Shown: positions 2,366-28,099 of the stretch, in pieces | Layout of the letters: every line of letters begins with the position of its first letter | Position numbering within the stretch: the stretch's first letter is position 1 | Origin: a virus | Virus record (IMG/VR): IMGVR_UViG_3300030389_002371 | Span: 1-28,715 of that record | Direction: 5' to 3' (one strand) | DNA: 28,715 nt | Position numbers and translations under genes: made by a program | Notes under the pieces: generated by a model | Told to the model about the DNA's origin: nothing | What the model saw: only the letters and a program-made list of their open reading frames with translations | The model's database searches: none

Positions 2366-2541
2366 AGCGAGACAACTGGTTAAATTTTGAGTTTTTTCTC
2401 GCAACAGAACTTGGTAAGACATTAGTTGAATTAAGAAAAGCTATTACAGAAGAGGAGCTTGTACATTGGGCTGCTTACTATGAAGTTAAATATGAAAGAG
2501 AAAAACAAGAAATGAATCGTCAAAAAGCCAAAACAAGGTAA
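2015..2541 (+). CDS. tail assembly chaperone, frameshifted long form (gpGT analogue)
   Basis: A -1 shift at AAAAAAC (2353-2359) moves ribosomes from codon AAC (2357-2359) into the frame that reads CGA ATA AAG CGA GAC AAC TGG onward to TAA at 2539-2541, adding about 60 residues for a 175-residue fusion. The added part (NWLNFEFFLATELGKT, then LRKAITEEELVHWAAYYE) has the tryptophan and EEL-W-AYY pattern typical of T-domains that recruit tail tube subunits to the tape measure. The second frame has no start of its own, and its only obvious means of expression is the shift. Confidence 0.8.
2353..2359 (+). promoter_or_regulatory. programmed -1 ribosomal frameshift site (A AAA AAC)
   Basis: In the zero frame the codons are GCA AAA AAC, so the heptamer is A AAA AAC, a canonical X XXY YYZ slippery sequence. 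It sits just before the zero-frame stop of the tail chaperone gene, exactly where the -1 open frame carrying the T-like domain begins. The lambda G/GT shift sets the ratio of the two chaperone forms. No strong downstream pseudoknot is obvious by eye. Confidence 0.8.
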
Positions 2542-2566
2542 TATATAATAAAGGTTATTTGCGTTT

Positions 2567-4261
2567 GTGGCACAATCTACTGTCAGATTAATAGTTGATG
2601 CACAAAATGCAATAAGACCATTGCAGCGCACTGATCAGATAACAAGACAACTTAGTAAAAATACAGATAAATTAAAAGGCAGATTAGATAGATCAAATCG
2701 TTCATTTAGAGAGCAGGGAAGATCGGCAAAGGTGGCTGCTGGTGGAGTACAAACATTAACTAGATCATTAGCACCTTTATTAAAAGCATTAGCAGTAGCA
2801 GCAACAGCAAGATTTATATTTGTTAAAACAGCAGAACTACAAACACAAAGAACAGCACTTATACAACTTACTGGCTCTGTAGATTCTGCAAATAAAATAA
2901 TAAGCCAACTACAAGCATTTGGTAATGTTACACCCTTTACAAGTAGTGAATTAATAGAACAGTCAAAACGGTTAAAGGCTTTTGGCTTTGAAACAGAAGA
3001 TTTGGTTGATACTGTAAAAAGATTATCAGATGTTGCTGGTGCTACTGGTGCAGATTTAAGTGGTATATCAACAGCTTTTGGTCAAATATTGGCAAAGGGT
3101 AAGTTACAAAGAGAGGAAGAATTGCAGTTATTAGAAAGAGGAGTTGATATTACAAGTGAATTAAAACGTATTACAGGTCTGCAGGGTGAAGAATTTGAAT
3201 CTGCAATGCGTAAAGGTAAGATTGGTGCTGATTTAGTTAATCAAGCATTAATAAATCTTACAAGTGAAGGTGGTGTATTTTTTGGTGGTGCAACAAAACA
3301 ATCGCAAACATTAAACGGACAGTTATCAACTTTCCAAGATAATGTAGAAACGCTTGCAAGAACTATTGGTGAAGTTTTAACACCAGCATTAATGGGTGCT
3401 TTAAAAACTGCAAATAAATTATTAGGTGCAATAAATAGATTATTTTCTAGTGACTTTCAAAGACAAATATCTGGTTTCAGAGCAAACTTAATAGTTCCCG
3501 GCGGTACCCTAAGTGACTTAAAAAAAATAGAGGACTTTACAAAAAATATACAACCTTTAGGTCTTGATACAGAAGCACTTGATCTAAGGATTAGTCAGTT
3601 ACAAGGAACAAAAAATCAGATAGACACACTTATGAATCAAATGGGTGGAAGAATAAGTCTTGAAGAAATAAATCAATCTTTATCAACACAAGAAGCATTA
3701 ACAAAAAAAATCAATGAGCTAACTGCAAGAAAAAATTTATTACTTGATGGTACTGATAGAAAAGTAAAAAAAATTGAAGAAAGCACTGGTGGTGTAAGTG
3801 ATGCCTTTAAAAAAATTGGCGATAGTATTGCACAAGGTGTATCTGATGCTCTGACAGATGCAATATTACAAGCAAGAACATTAGGTGAAGCTGCAAGAGG
3901 TATTTTAAATATGATTGCACGATCACTTTTACAACTTGGCATAAATACAATTCTTGCTGGATTTGGTGGTCCATTTGCAAATTTACCTACTTTTGCCAAT
4001 GGTGGTAGACCACCTGTTGGCAAACCATCAATCGTGGGTGAGAGAGGTCCAGAATTGTTTGTACCTTCTACTGCTGGAACAATTATTCCTAATCATTCTT
4101 TGGGTGGTGGTGTAACAAATAATATTGTTGTTAATGTAGATGCATCAGGTTCTAATGTAGAAGGAAATGAAAGTCAAAGCAGAGAGCTTGGCCTTGTTCT
4201 TTCTACTGCAATACAAGCACAACTAATACAAGAAAAACGACCCGGAGGTTTACTTGCATAA
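2567..4261 (+). CDS. tape measure protein
   Basis: 564 residues from a GTG start (VAQSTVRLIVDAQNAI). The N-terminal region is a basic coiled coil. Residues about 110-290 carry the tape-measure core: VTPFTSSELIEQSKRLKAFGF, then AGATGADLSGISTAFGQI and LTSEGGVFFGG-TKQSQTLNGQLST. A second coiled region and a hydrophobic stretch follow (about 415-470), then the glycine-rich end (ERGPELFVPSTAGTI, NNIVVNVDASGSN). It sets tail length and is ejected ahead of the DNA. At about 1.5 angstrom per residue it suggests a tail of roughly 80-90 nm, shorter than lambda's. The stop overlaps the next ATG by one base. Confidence 0.92.
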   Translation: MAQSTVRLIVDAQNAIRPLQRTDQITRQLSKNTDKLKGRLDRSNRSFREQGRSAKVAAGGVQTLTRSLAPLLKALAVAATARFIFVKTAELQTQRTALIQLTGSVDSANKIISQLQAFGNVTPFTSSELIEQSKRLKAFGFETEDLVDTVKRLSDVAGATGADLSGISTAFGQILAKGKLQREEELQLLERGVDITSELKRITGLQGEEFESAMRKGKIGADLVNQALINLTSEGGVFFGGATKQSQTLNGQLSTFQDNVETLARTIGEVLTPALMGALKTANKLLGAINRLFSSDFQRQISGFRANLIVPGGTLSDLKKIEDFTKNIQPLGLDTEALDLRISQLQGTKNQIDTLMNQMGGRISLEEINQSLSTQEALTKKINELTARKNLLLDGTDRKVKKIEESTGGVSDAFKKIGDSIAQGVSDALTDAILQARTLGEAARGILNMIARSLLQLGINTILAGFGGPFANLPTFANGGRPPVGKPSIVGERGPELFVPSTAGTIIPNHSLGGGVTNNIVVNVDASGSNVEGNESQSRELGLVLSTAIQAQLIQEKRPGGLLA

Positions 4262-4830
4262 TGGCAACCTTTCCATCATTTACACCAACTTATTCAAGTT
4301 TTAGAAAAAAATCAGAACCAGTAAAAAGACTTGTACGCTTTGCAGATGGGTATGAGCATAGGGTTTTGTTTGGACTAGCTAGTCATCAAAATCCCAAAAT
4401 ATATGATTTAGAGTTTAACGAATCTGAAGAAGATGCAGATGTTATTGAAGCATTTTTAGATAGCAGAGCAAATGACCAAGCAAGCTTTACTTTTACACCG
4501 CACGGAGAAGGTGTATCAAAAACAGGTACTTACAGCCAATCAGGAACCACTGTGACAATCACTGTAACCAAACATGGTATTGCTATTGGTGAAACTGTAA
4601 CTCTTGATTTTACAACTGGTTCTGCAACAGACGGAACATTTATTGTTGCATCTTCTGCTGACCAAAATACTTTCACTGTTACGGCTGGTTCAAGTGCTAC
4701 CAATAGTGGAAATGTATCTGTTACTGTTTCTGGTGCTAAAAAGTTTGTTTGCGAAAGCTGGACAAAAACAATACCTTACAATAATAGAGCCAGAATTAAT
4801 ACAACATTTAGAGAGGTGTTTGAACCATGA
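4261..4830 (+). CDS. minor tail protein, lambda gpM-like, with inserted beta domain
   Basis: 189 residues. Residues 1-85 match the gpM family (RLVRFADGYEHRVLFGL, DLEFNESEEDADVIEAFLDSR, ASFTFTPHGEG), and residues 158-189 match its end (KKFVCESWTKTIPYNNRARINTTFREV). Between them, residues about 86-157 form an extra Thr/Val-rich module that also occurs in the gpJ-like protein of this phage. Lambda gpM is only about 109 residues, so the extra length is this insertion. The protein belongs to the distal tail region. It overlaps the gpL gene by 4 bases (ATGA). Confidence 0.85.
   Translation: MATFPSFTPTYSSFRKKSEPVKRLVRFADGYEHRVLFGLASHQNPKIYDLEFNESEEDADVIEAFLDSRANDQASFTFTPHGEGVSKTGTYSQSGTTVTITVTKHGIAIGETVTLDFTTGSATDGTFIVASSADQNTFTVTAGSSATNSGNVSVTVSGAKKFVCESWTKTIPYNNRARINTTFREVFEP
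4516..4731 (+). repeat. copy 1 of a shared tail-protein beta module (inserted in gpM-like protein)
   Basis: Encodes about 72 residues with the pattern Y-QSGTT-TIT-T-HG, then DFT-GSATDG, then D-NTFTV. The same pattern occurs at 9704-9908 inside the gpJ-like protein. DNA of the two copies has diverged, so the similarity is at protein level. The flanking gpM sequence is contiguous with the family if this block is removed. Ends are approximate. Confidence 0.75.
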
Positions 4831-5402
4831 GCAGTAGTGTTATTAGTGATATTCAATCAATTAATCCTTCATCAATTATTGAATTATTTACTCTTACTAC
4901 AACTGCTGCTTTGCATGGCTCTGCGACAACATATAGATTTCATGCTGGTTCAAGTTTAAATGCTAATGGAGAGATTGTTTGGGCTGGTAATACATACCAA
5001 AGATTCCCTGTACAAGTAGAAGGCTTTGCATATCAAAAAGGGCAAATACCAAGACCAACTTTAACTGTAAGTAATGTTCTTGGAACTATTACATCAATTC
5101 TTCTTACTGTAAATCAAACAACAACTGGTAATGATTTAACAGGGGCAACTCTTACAAGAATACGAACACTTGCTAAATTTATTGATGCTGTAAATTTTGC
5201 TGGTAATGTAAATCCCTACGGCACACCAGACCCAAACGCTGAATTTGCACAAGAGATATATTCGATTGATAGAAAGTCACAAGAAACAAGAGAGGTAGTT
5301 TCTTTTGAACTTGCTGCACCAATTGATCTTGCTGGTGTTCGTGCGCCAAAAAGACAATGTACAAGAGCAGAATTTCCTAGCATTGGCCGAATAAAAATAT
5401 GA
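4827..5402 (+). CDS. minor tail protein, lambda gpL-like, lacking the Fe-S end
   Basis: 191 residues. SVISDIQSINPSSIIELFTL, then WAGNTYQRFPVQVEGFAY, PRPTLTVSN, and SRETREVVSFELAAPIDL-type sequence (here SQETREVVSFELAAPIDLAG) are gpL family features. gpL sits in the tail tip between hub and tube. Lambda gpL is about 232 residues and has a C-terminal four-cysteine [4Fe-4S] domain. Here the protein stops soon after the first Cys (PKRQCTRAEFPSIGRIKI), so the cluster-binding part is missing. It starts in an ATGA overlap and overlaps the gpK-like gene by 4 bases. Confidence 0.88.
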   Translation: MSSSVISDIQSINPSSIIELFTLTTTAALHGSATTYRFHAGSSLNANGEIVWAGNTYQRFPVQVEGFAYQKGQIPRPTLTVSNVLGTITSILLTVNQTTTGNDLTGATLTRIRTLAKFIDAVNFAGNVNPYGTPDPNAEFAQEIYSIDRKSQETREVVSFELAAPIDLAGVRAPKRQCTRAEFPSIGRIKI

Positions 5403-24603: not shown

Positions 24604-24772
24604 AGAATTAAAAGAATTATTTGATGATTACAAAAAGTTAGAATCTTTTTGGAAACTTAATGAAAGTTTAGAAAGTCAAGGTGTTTATGGTTTCATTAAA
24701 ACTGAAACTAAAGTTAAATATATAAAATTTTTTAAAACTTTTAAAAGTAAAATTTTAAACAAAAAAAAATGA
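24593..24772 (+). CDS. small charged protein (59 aa)
   Basis: ATG at 24593, inside the end of the preceding gene, to TGA at 24770-24772. It overlaps the ParB-like start by 4 bases (ATGA). Acidic N-terminus (MTDEELKELFDDYKKLESFW), then KLNESLESQGVYGFIKTETK, and a strongly basic end (YIKFFKTFKSKILNKKK). Fills what would otherwise be a 165-base gap in a tight operon. Not recognised. Confidence 0.6.
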   Translation: MTDEELKELFDDYKKLESFWKLNESLESQGVYGFIKTETKVKYIKFFKTFKSKILNKKK

Positions 24773-25272
24773 CAAAAATCAACGATCTAAAGCCAGACCA
24801 CAAGAACGCAAGGAAAAGAACAGATCGTTCTGCCTCATTAATACAAGAGTCACTCGAAAGATATGGTGCAGCAAGATCAATCGTTATTGATGAAGATGGT
24901 CGTGTACTTGCTGGCAATGGAACTGTAGAAGGTGCAAAGGCTGCTGGCCTAGAGAATGTTCGCGTCATAGAATCTGATGGTAAAGAGATTATTGCGATAA
25001 AACGTACTGGCCTTACAGAAGATCAGAAAGTTGGCCTAGCACTTGCAGACAACAGAACATCTGACTTGTCAGATTGGGATGCATCTATGTTGCATCACTT
25101 ATCAATGGAACATGAGATTGACCCTTGGTTTGAACCCGAAGATTTGACAGAACTTATGGATGATAGAACTGATGCAGAAGCACCAGAGGATTTTAAAGAT
25201 GTCGATGATGACATAGAAACAGAACACAGATGTCCAAGTTGTGGGTATGAGTGGAGTGGTAAAGCAAAATAA
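24769..25272 (+). CDS. ParB-like domain protein, first gene of the modification cassette
   Basis: 167 residues. Residues 1-95 are a ParB/Srx-type domain: INDLKPDHKNARKRTD, LIQESLERYGAARSIVIDED and GRVLAGNGTVEGAKAAG (GNGT at 49-52, the nucleotide-binding loop region). Residues 81-120 (LTEDQKVGLALADNRTSDLS) form a helical HTH-like part. The end has one zinc knuckle (HRCPSCGYEWSG, Cys155 and Cys158). ParB-like proteins of this size are frequently next to DNA methyltransferases in phages. No partner ParA is present, so partition is unlikely; targeting or regulating base modification is more likely. Confidence 0.85.
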   Translation: MTKINDLKPDHKNARKRTDRSASLIQESLERYGAARSIVIDEDGRVLAGNGTVEGAKAAGLENVRVIESDGKEIIAIKRTGLTEDQKVGLALADNRTSDLSDWDASMLHHLSMEHEIDPWFEPEDLTELMDDRTDAEAPEDFKDVDDDIETEHRCPSCGYEWSGKAK

Positions 25273-26071
25273 TATTCGAACTGTTCTACAAGAAATAATC
25301 AAACCATTACCAAATAAAATTTGTGTTGCAACATCAGGTGGTATTGATTCATCATCTGTTGTCATGTCTGCTCTTGATGTAGGAAAAGAGGTAAGGGTTT
25401 ATTCGTTTACTTTTGGAAAACATTTTTCATCAGATTTTGAAGCTGCAAGAAAACTTGCTTGGCAATTTAATCTTACTTTTGTTCCTGTATTTTTACCTTC
25501 AGAACGAGATGAGATTGTTGAGACAGTAAAATATCTTATAAAAAATGTGGGTTGTAAGAAAAAAACTGCCATAGAGTGCCTTTTTCCTTTTTATTACTTA
25601 ATAAAATTAATGAAAGAATTTAAAGATAAAACACTTGTGACAGGTGTTGCCGCAGATGGGCACTTTGGTCTTTCTAAAAAAGCAATGATTCATTACTCAA
25701 AAGATAACCAAAAGTTTAAAAAATTTAGGCAAGATTATTTCTCCAACTTAGAATCTGCTGGCACGAAAAGACTGATTAAACTATGCCAACAAAATAAAAT
25801 ACAACTTTGCAACCCATACTTTGAGCCTTCTGTATTTTCTTTATGGATAGATAAAAACTGGGAAGAATTAAACAAGCCCAGGCAAAAAGAGGTCATTCGT
25901 ATGCATTATCCTGAATTAGATTGCCTTAAAATAAAACCTCATACAAACTTACAGCTAGGTGACAGCAAGATTGCAGAAACAGTTGGCAATGCGGTAATTT
26001 CTAAATATAAACCTAATTCAAAATCTCCCATTGGTATCTATAACAGAATCGCAAAAGGTGTCTATGCCTAA
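25247..26071 (+). CDS. asparagine-synthetase-like PP-loop enzyme, no glutaminase domain
   Basis: 274 residues from ATG 25247 (GTG at 25241 also possible). The PP-loop SGGIDSSS (about 30-37) follows the strand NKICVAT, and LVTGVAADGHFGLSKKAM (about 130-147) resembles the GxGADE(L)FGGY segment of asparagine synthetase. The family activates a carboxylate as an acyl-AMP and lets ammonia displace AMP, giving an amide. AsnB's N-terminal glutaminase domain is absent, so ammonia must be free or come from a partner. Overlaps ParB-like by 26 bases and the methyltransferase by 8. Substrate unknown; a modified base is inferred from context. Confidence 0.82.
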   Translation: MSGVVKQNNIRTVLQEIIKPLPNKICVATSGGIDSSSVVMSALDVGKEVRVYSFTFGKHFSSDFEAARKLAWQFNLTFVPVFLPSERDEIVETVKYLIKNVGCKKKTAIECLFPFYYLIKLMKEFKDKTLVTGVAADGHFGLSKKAMIHYSKDNQKFKKFRQDYFSNLESAGTKRLIKLCQQNKIQLCNPYFEPSVFSLWIDKNWEELNKPRQKEVIRMHYPELDCLKIKPHTNLQLGDSKIAETVGNAVISKYKPNSKSPIGIYNRIAKGVYA

Positions 26072-27122
26072 ACCAGTTTTCAAAATACCTTCTATGGTAG
26101 ATATTGAAGCAACTCCGTGGAATGGGTTTAAAGTTGCTTCTACCTTTTCTGGTTGCGGTGGTTCTTGTCTTGGTTATCGTATTGCTGGCTATAAAGTTGT
26201 TTATGCAAACGAATTTATTGAATCTGCAAGGGAAACTTATAAGGCCAACCATCCAGACAGTTTTCTTGACCCAAGAGACATCAGAAAAATAAATGCAGAT
26301 GATATTTTAGATAAAATAAACTTAAAAAAAGGCGAACTTGATCTATTTGATGGCAGCCCTCCTTGCGCTGCTTTTTCCATTGGCGGTAAAAGGGAGAAAG
26401 GCTGGGGTAAAGAAAAAAAATACAGCGAAACAACGCAAAGGGTAGATGATCTATTTTTTGAATATGCTCGCATACTTGATGGTCTACAACCAAAAGTTTT
26501 TGTGGCAGAGAATGTTGCTGGCCTTGTACAGGGTACTGCCAAAGGTTATTTCAAACGCATACTTACAAAACTTAGGGCTTGTGGTTACAACGTAAAATGT
26601 AAAGTCCTTGATGCTCAGTGGCTAGGTGTGCCACAGATGAGAAAAAGAACAATTTTCGTAGGAGTTAGAAATGATCTCTGCATAGAACCAGTACATCCAA
26701 AACCAATACCATATCAATATTCTGTTGGCGAAGCATTAATAGGTGTTGAAGAATCTGAAGAATATAAACATATTGACCCTAGTACAGAAACCTATAAATT
26801 ATGGAAACTAACAAAACCTGGGGATCAATTTTATAAAGCTGCACTGAAACTAACTGGACAGAATAAATTTTTCTCCCATGTAAAGCAATCGCCATTTCGT
26901 GTTGCGAATACTGTTGTACAAGGAACTATGGATAAATACCATTGGTCAGAACCAAGATTATTTACAATACAAGAACTAAAAAGAATCAGCACTTTCCCTG
27001 ATGATTTTATTTTGCATGGTAATCTGTACCAAAAGTGGGAACGAGTCGGTAGGGCTGTACCACCACTGATGATGGCCAAAGTTGCAGAGACTGTTGCCAA
27101 AGAAATTCTACAAAAAATCTGA
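26064..27122 (+). CDS. C5-cytosine DNA methyltransferase with Arg in motif X
   Basis: 352 residues from ATG 26064, preferred over TTG 26031 because AAAGGTG lies just upstream. All main motifs are present: I (STFSGCGGSCLGYRIAGY, about 26-43), IV (GSPPCAAFS, catalytic Cys101), VI (VAENVAGL, Glu149-Asn150), VIII (QMRKRTIFVGVR), a target domain about 205-300, IX (FTIQELKRISTFPDDF) and X (WERVGRAVPPLMMAKVAETV). In motif X the usual Asn of GN(A/S)V is Arg330 (codon AGG 27051-27053). It should flip and alkylate cytosine at C5; the Arg raises the possibility of a non-methyl donor. Its stop abuts the next ATG. Confidence 0.92.
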   Translation: MPKPVFKIPSMVDIEATPWNGFKVASTFSGCGGSCLGYRIAGYKVVYANEFIESARETYKANHPDSFLDPRDIRKINADDILDKINLKKGELDLFDGSPPCAAFSIGGKREKGWGKEKKYSETTQRVDDLFFEYARILDGLQPKVFVAENVAGLVQGTAKGYFKRILTKLRACGYNVKCKVLDAQWLGVPQMRKRTIFVGVRNDLCIEPVHPKPIPYQYSVGEALIGVEESEEYKHIDPSTETYKLWKLTKPGDQFYKAALKLTGQNKFFSHVKQSPFRVANTVVQGTMDKYHWSEPRLFTIQELKRISTFPDDFILHGNLYQKWERVGRAVPPLMMAKVAETVAKEILQKI

Positions 27123-27776
27123 ATGGACATACCAACCAACTGGACTTTTGAAACCTCGGGTGTTGCCAAAGGTTTTGATCGTCATGTAAGAGAGCAGTTA
27201 CCTTGGTATGACCTAGCAACAAATGCAATACTTCATGTGGCCAGGCATTACATACCAGAAAATGGTCTTGTCTATGATTTCGGTGCATCAACTGGCAACA
27301 TTGGTAGAGCATTAGAACCAATACTGACCAAAAGAAAAGCACACTTAATTGGCATAGAACCTAGTAAAGAAATGATCAAACTTTACAAGGCACCAGGGGA
27401 GATTGTCTGTTCAAAGGCAGAGACATTTATACCAAAAGATTTTGATTTATCAGTTTTATTTTTATGTTTAATGTTTATTCCACCAGCCAAAAGATTTAAT
27501 CTTATGCTAAGACTAAGAGAGAAATGCAAACCTGGAGGAGCAATTATTGTCTTTGACAAGTTAGAACCAATTGGTGGCTACGCTTCAACTGTTTTCTATC
27601 GTCTTACACTTGCTGGCAAAAAAGCATCTGGAACAAACTCAGATGAGATAATTGAAAAAGAATTATCACTGTCAGGTGTACAAAGACCTATTACAGAAGA
27701 TCAACTTGCTGGCGAATTTATTAACTGGTTCAAATTTGGCGATTTCTCAGGGTACCTTATAGAAAAACCAGCATAA
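27123..27776 (+). CDS. CmoA-like class I SAM-dependent enzyme
   Basis: 217 residues. N-terminal NWTFETSGVAKGFDRHV and LPWYDLATNAI match the start of CmoA (WTF-VA-FD/H, P-Y). Motif I is GLVYDFGASTGNIG (about 48-61), then HLIGIEPSKEMI (acidic Glu79), LSVLFLCLMFIPPAKR (CmoA has LNFTLQFI-PP), and CKPGGAIIVFDKLEP. E. coli CmoA (about 247 aa) makes carboxy-SAM from SAM and prephenate. Here the region corresponding to the CmoA 'EI-QKR' helix reads DEIIEKELSL, so residues handling the carboxyl group are not clearly kept. It could be a divergent carboxy-SAM synthase or a plain methyltransferase. Directly abuts the C5-methyltransferase. Confidence 0.78.
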   Translation: MDIPTNWTFETSGVAKGFDRHVREQLPWYDLATNAILHVARHYIPENGLVYDFGASTGNIGRALEPILTKRKAHLIGIEPSKEMIKLYKAPGEIVCSKAETFIPKDFDLSVLFLCLMFIPPAKRFNLMLRLREKCKPGGAIIVFDKLEPIGGYASTVFYRLTLAGKKASGTNSDEIIEKELSLSGVQRPITEDQLAGEFINWFKFGDFSGYLIEKPA

Positions 27777-28099
27777 TGGCAGCATCACAAACCACACAGG
27801 CAGAAACAGAAATGCGTATTGCAAGATGCGCAAGAATAATTGCCAATGGCGGTAGAAGGTCTGATTGTATTCAATACGCTGCAACAAATTGGGGGGTCAG
27901 TAAGAGGACTGTTGATAATTATTTAAAAGAGGCAAGAACACAATTACGAGCAGATTGGGATATTGAAAGGCCACAAATGATTGCTGATTTATTAAGTCAG
28001 TGCAGTACTTTACAGATGGAGGCCAGGAGGAATGGTCAACTTAATATTGCTCTTGGTGCAATCAATACAGCCGCCAAGTTAGCTGACCTTTGCTCATGA
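27776..28099 (+). CDS. terS: terminase small subunit
   Basis: 107 residues. An N-terminal helix-turn-helix is visible (ARCARIIANGGRRSDCIQY, AATNWGVSKRTVDNYLKEA), followed by helical oligomerisation-type sequence (MIADLLSQCSTLQMEARRNG). TerS rings recognise the packaging site and hand DNA to the large subunit. It overlaps the CmoA-like gene by one base (TAATG) and terL by 4 bases, tying the modification cassette to packaging genes in one operon. Confidence 0.88.
   Translation: MAASQTTQAETEMRIARCARIIANGGRRSDCIQYAATNWGVSKRTVDNYLKEARTQLRADWDIERPQMIADLLSQCSTLQMEARRNGQLNIALGAINTAAKLADLCS

Follow-up and report, generated by a model that had tools for sequence, protein, structure and literature searches.

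A probable CmoA-CmoX-CmoY type DNA hypermodification cassette with an exchangeable ligase gene, placed directly before the packaging genes of a small lambda-tailed virus

A route for the hypermodification of phage DNA was published in December 2025 for Synechococcus phage S-B43 (Yang et al., Nat Commun 2025; PMC12783734), in which CmoA produces carboxy-S-adenosylmethionine (carboxy-SAM), CmoX forms 5-carboxymethylcytosine (5cxmC) in DNA, and CmoY, which is homologous to asparagine synthetase, couples 5cxmC to glycine, giving 5-glycyl-cxmC. The same paper, the sole one on the CmoX/CmoY system found by literature search, reports that ParBc-domain genes are frequent near the system in related contigs, and that a second ligase class bears a glutaminase domain, with ammonia suggested as its amine. 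Here, a cassette of ParB-like, CmoY-like, CmoX-like and CmoA-like genes was analysed in virus record IMGVR_UViG_3300030389_002371 of IMG/VR (28,715 b, referred to in full as the window). The pathway itself is not new, and the window cassette is a further case of the published kind; new in this analysis is the strain-level exchange of the ligase gene among close phage relatives, whose loci and contigs are denoted by L-numbers.

In S-B43 (MN018232, L064), the three homologous enzymes are encoded side by side, as in the window, and the two systems share a CmoX with the SPPC motif and a diagnostic Arg, a ligase consisting of the PP-loop synthetase domain only and carrying common signature residues, and the presumed chemistry of a carboxylate handle followed by an amide. 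S-B43 differs in being a 214-kb Kyanoviridae cyanophage, with the order CmoA-CmoY-CmoX, no adjacent ParB gene, and no terminase within the 9-kb stretch read, and is ~37% identical to the window in CmoX and ~34% over the aligned part of the ligase. Judged by gene content, hallmark residues, co-occurrence, fold and the allele exchange observed here, and with the chemistry taken from homologues studied by others, the window cassette is probably a DNA hypermodification module of the CmoA-CmoX-CmoY type, with glycine or a small amino acid as the likely amine and the ligase as the variable part. CmoA would convert S-adenosylmethionine (SAM) and prephenate to carboxy-SAM, CmoX would move the carboxymethyl group onto cytosine C5 in phage DNA, and CmoY would adenylate the 5cxmC carboxylate and then join it to an amine, for which glycine or some other small amino acid is the likeliest candidate; we infer that the resulting amide would shield the phage genome against host nucleases. 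In sister phages the ligase is replaced by alleles ~54–75% identical, or is missing, with most flanking genes nearly unchanged; whether a terminal group is present, and perhaps which one, would therefore vary among otherwise near-identical phages.

Among PDB structures, the window CmoX matched that of S-B43 CmoX best (8yf3, E 2.9e-73), and its hallmarks, SPPC at residues 109–112 and Arg341, equivalent to S-B43 R350 (window residues counted from a TTG at 26031), are invariant in alignment A1. Arg at the R350 position contacts the carboxymethyl group of carboxy-SAM. In a control on cellular genomes selected solely for similarity to CmoX, in which some loci share a genome, CmoA was found within 3 kb at 32/34 loci with this Arg, and at 0/21 loci with another residue (Fisher p 3e-13); the two exceptions were L234, where CmoA is farther off, and L238, which has CmoY and no CmoA in reach. 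That the window encodes an ordinary 5-methylcytosine methyltransferase beside an unrelated SAM-dependent enzyme of tRNA modification or metabolism is very improbable: the fold by itself is that of a C5-methyltransferase and the CmoA-like protein scores under its equivalog cut-off, but the SPPC motif, the carboxymethyl-binding Arg and its coincidence with a CmoA neighbour argue against it, as does the fact that the scan of window proteins recognised nothing CmoB-like. Two Staphylococcus phages with CmoA beside a C5-methyltransferase (L067, 3986–6504; L071, 4989–6688) were not counted as CmoX, their methyltransferases having GSPC in place of SPPC and lacking the Arg of the carboxy-SAM position; these enzymes either bind carboxy-SAM in an alternative way or stand beside a CmoA put to a different use, and L067 additionally encodes a CmoY-like ligase. 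Across the window (1–28715), GpC is over-represented (observed/expected 1.25) and CpG under-represented (0.48); the window therefore does not avoid GC, the motif known for S-B43 CmoX.

The co-occurrence of the cassette genes was surveyed in IMG/VR, using only loci with enough flanking DNA, in sets that favour relatives of the queries. Hallmark CmoX adjoined CmoA, with ParB also present, at 27/27 loci found with the window CmoA; the CmoY query gave CmoX and CmoA at 45/45 loci and ParB at 39; and the 34 loci of the CmoX query held CmoA in 33, ParB in 33, a PP-loop-only ligase in 13, a glutaminase-type ligase in 7, and no ligase in 14. Such co-occurrence of the genes named in the preliminary description, made from the window sequence alone, is above chance (27/27, 45/45 and 33/34). 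A PDB search with the window CmoA-like protein returned YecO/CmoA as best matches, and the residue that we take to be R199 of E. coli CmoA, with numbering and sequence assumed, is Glu in both the window and S-B43 proteins.

Several points weigh against this assignment of the cassette. The CmoA-like protein scores 53 bits against TIGR00740, under the equivalog cut-off of 193, and, being short (217 aa) and scoring lower than the active S-B43 CmoA (116 bits), has possibly lost or changed its activity; S-B43 CmoY is only about one third identical in sequence to the window ligase; and the differing ligase alleles may all use one amine. Since the proven S-B43 enzyme also falls under the cut-off, this threshold does not decide for phage enzymes and was dropped as evidence against CmoA, and the window protein is for that reason called "CmoA-like".

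A PDB sequence search with CmoY gave a chance match only, and fold comparison was needed instead. The AlphaFold2 model of the window ligase (predicted local distance difference test (pLDDT) 93, predicted template modelling score (pTM) 0.90) matched human asparagine synthetase with VIA Z 23 and a root mean square deviation (rmsd) of 3.0 over 258 residues, and the synthetase domains of asparagine and beta-lactam synthetases with VIA Z 20–23. Unlike asparagine synthetase B and beta-lactam synthetase, with which it has this fold in common, the window ligase has no glutaminase (GATase) domain, there being no match to one in its 276-aa open reading frame and the model covering the synthetase domain only, and its substrate is presumably a DNA base carboxylate; asparagine synthetase B itself, with an N-terminal glutaminase domain, was rejected as an identification. 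Ligase residues were compared between 83 PP-loop-only rows and 19 glutaminase-type ligases of CmoX cassettes, a few rows repeating one sequence. Both classes have K106, E110, D137, R161, K214 and Q236. The PP-loop-only class, to which the window ligase and the proven glycine ligase (SpCmoY) belong, is marked by C111, S143-K144-K145, H149, N209 and H232; the glutaminase class instead has Ile for Cys111, Tyr-Gly for Ser143-Lys144, and Lys for His232.

These comparisons bear on the final product. The preliminary description had derived a route from carboxy-SAM through 5cxmC to an amide-forming PP-loop enzyme, which agrees with what was shown for the S-B43 homologues and with the diagnostic residues kept in the window, and had taken the last step to be amidation of 5cxmC with ammonia, giving 5-carbamoylmethylcytosine. 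This last step is improbable for the window ligase. It would suit the asparagine-synthetase fold, free ammonia could still be used, and glutaminase-type ligases, for which ammonia was suggested (PMC12783734), do exist in other CmoX cassettes, among them that of Streptomyces phage TurkishDelight (NC_073473, L066). TurkishDelight has the order ParB-CmoX-ligase-CmoA, the CmoX hallmarks, and a CPxC ParB tail like that of the window, and differs in that its ligase lies between CmoX and CmoA and bears an N-terminal glutaminase domain (PF13522/PF13537). Because the window ligase has no such domain and resembles the glycine ligase, not the glutaminase class, in its signature residues (Cys111, Ser143-Lys144, His232), we infer that an amino-acid amide, most simply that of glycine, is the likelier product.

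For analysis of ligase exchange, CmoY was compared among contigs with CmoA and terS 93–100% identical to those of the window, a tight lineage in which ParB, CmoA and terS are mostly 93–100% identical. Identity to the window CmoY is 94–97% in L024, L139, L140 and L007, 85–91% in L013, L141, L142, L144 and L012, 64–75% in L018 (type II), L149, L017 and L021, and 54–58% in L028, L151, L031 and L039 (type III), and CmoY is absent in L026, L036–L038 and L043. Nucleotide identity is mostly about 80–95% in the flanks, 50–70% from just inside CmoY, and ~90% again at its last codons, and the other compared genes of type III contigs are at least 77% identical, with the exception of terL in L039 (46%). 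A second lineage (CmoA 81% identical to that of the window) likewise holds type I, type III and no-ligase forms, and within it L052, whose ligase is of type III, and L147 are 99% identical in ParB, CmoX and CmoA, with ligases only ~59% identical. In the CmoY tree, the type III ligases of both lineages fall together, separate from type I of both, and trees constrained to keep either lineage together were rejected (approximately unbiased (AU) test, p 1e-57 and 2.7e-4); the CmoA tree keeps both lineages separate. Mapping ligase states on a CmoA+terS DNA tree (31 rows) required at least 11 changes. Chimeric assembly is an unlikely source of the swapped ligases, since types I and III and absence each recur in several independent contigs. 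Strains with no ligase have a different CmoX (~73% identical to ligase-bearing forms in lineage 1, 80% in lineage 2), a sequence pattern that gives the impression of CmoX and ligase going together in matched pairs.

With ligase versions that differ greatly or are lacking, DNA decoration may differ from strain to strain. That nothing beyond drift and general phage mosaicism separates the alleles, all giving an identical product, has a little under an even chance of being right: phage genes recombine freely, K106, R161, N209, K214, H232 and Q236 are nearly constant across all ligase types, and terL too has been replaced in one contig (L039), where the distant terL (46%) lies downstream of a 93% terS of the same lineage. 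Against drift, it is CmoY that, time after time in several independent contigs, diverges most within the compared stretch or is missing from it; both lineages hold types I and III; and there is no obvious advantage in retaining such old alleles of an enzyme whose product is fixed. More tentatively, the ligase slot may be a diversifying module, in which the exchange of types I, II, III or none inside a single phage population changes the group on the DNA (other amino acids, or bare 5cxmC) and the polymorphism is held across two lineages by host-restriction selection, like variable surface antigens, with the metal-binding Asp of type III relocated.

This Asp was followed through the aligned ligases. 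PP-loop Asp34 is Ser or Gly in exactly 14 of them, all with Asp136, which adjoins the conserved Asp137 and is found in 0/69 others. In beta-lactam synthetase, these two loops hold Mg-binding Asp residues. Type III therefore looks like an enzyme in which the metal-ligand Asp has moved from the PP-loop to the neighbouring loop rather than one whose activity was lost, and a dead enzyme, considered from the loss of Asp34, was set aside since all 14 have Asp136. Two further features were observed in relatives: a 152-b insert between CmoX and CmoA (L029, 5849–6000; L142, 8886–9037; L043, 5849–6000) that the window does not have, and in which L029 and L142 keep one frame open until a stop that immediately precedes CmoA, and a CmoY-like frame open for ~600 aa in L153 (6005–7798), which suggests an N-terminal fusion or extension.

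The placement before packaging genes is common, terL being recognised at most 2.5 kb downstream in 111/155 loci (redundant loci included); this fits late, pre-packaging modification without proving it, and the timing might, as the preliminary description proposed, come from co-transcription with terminase. The cassette lies just before the packaging genes also in a probable Verrucomicrobia prophage and in Moraxella phage Mcat8 (KR093632, L065), where ParB, CmoX and CmoA immediately precede terS-terL, ordered as in the window, and which is the closest among named phages (CmoA 54%, CmoX 49% identical). No CmoY-like ligase was found in the complete 40.7-kb Mcat8 record, and plain 5cxmC is therefore predicted for this phage. 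Verrucomicrobia genomes (L208–L231, L239) each hold several ParB-CmoX-CmoA cassettes in a common phage-like gene order, with a longer form of CmoX and no recognised ligase; a cellular system was rejected for these, since L229, the locus inspected in detail, is flanked by phage replication genes and terS-terL-portal and this order recurs in the others, a prophage-like arrangement. Cyanophage MED4-117 (L266), whose terS and terL are related to those of the window and whose open reading frame directly preceding terminase belongs to the window terS family (phrog_34910), carries in the slot before terS (2528–4972) a ParB-like gene, an FkbM-type methyltransferase and a phrog_6059 protein, a family named queuine tRNA-ribosyltransferase, with a weak Tet_JBP match; this is perhaps a different DNA modification module at the equivalent place.

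The AlphaFold2 model of the ParB-like protein (pLDDT 87) matched M. xanthus ParB with VIA Z 8.5 and rmsd 2.4 over 71 residues. It has the ParB N-domain fold in common with the ParB/Spo0J CTPase over ~70 residues (Z 8.5), and unlike that protein it is only 167 aa long and ends in CPxCGYxW; the GERRxRA motif was not seen by eye in these 167 aa, no dedicated test for it having been made. Its C-terminal motif, CPSCGYEW, belongs to a CxxC plus aromatic tail, perhaps a zinc knuckle, that is present in 122/124 distinct cassette ParBs. Fusions between ParB domains and phage DNA methyltransferases are frequent, which makes it plausible that this protein helps to load or regulate the methyltransferase.

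All four open reading frames of the cassette are open at the coordinates of Table 1, confirming the overlapping or abutting layout first described. With starts at ATG 25247 (ligase) and ATG 26064 (CmoX), which these lengths presuppose, ParB and ligase overlap by 26 b, ligase and CmoX by 8 b, CmoX and CmoA abut at 0 b (TGA|ATG), and CmoA overlaps terS by 1 b. The family labels of the preliminary description likewise agree with the profile matches (phrog_620, PF00733, PF00145 and TIGR00740). The window phage also encodes lambda-like tail genes, exonuclease VIII and Erf-like recombination genes, and the best relatives of its terL among the matches listed are cyanophages, at 40–46% identity.

Table 1. 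Coordinates and supporting matches of the cassette and the adjoining packaging genes in the window.
Feature	Position	Strand	Support
ParB-like (ParB/Srx-fold N domain), 167 aa	24769..25272	+	phrog_620 E 5.6e-30
CmoY-like amide ligase, ATP-dependent, with no domain besides the PP-loop synthetase domain; type I allele	ATG 25247..26071	+	PF00733 Asn_synthase E 4.3e-10
AAGGTG, likely ribosome-binding site of CmoX (ATG 26064)	26055..26060	+	sequence reading
CmoX-like DNA cytosine C5-carboxymethyltransferase (predicted)	ATG 26064..27122	+	PF00145 E 2.8e-59
CmoA-like carboxy-SAM synthase (predicted), 217 aa	27123..27776	+	TIGR00740 E 3.1e-14; phrog_4752 E 1.4e-44; PDB YecO E 2.8e-10
terS	27776..28099	+	phrog_34910 E 1.6e-28
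terL, 5' part, gene cut by contig end	28090..28713	+	PF03237; phrog_2

By its sequence alone, the cassette lends support to the DNA modification route made public in December 2025, and it places that route among small viruses of one lambda-tailed lineage, in which the module adjoins the packaging genes directly. Through the exchange of the ligase, naturally occurring groups of near-identical phages are available whose main difference lies in the last step, and such groups make variation of phage DNA chemistry as an escape from host nucleases directly testable. The ligase alleles are also a source of amide ligases, possibly using different amines, for DNA labelling. The part worth following is the strain-level exchange of the ligase.

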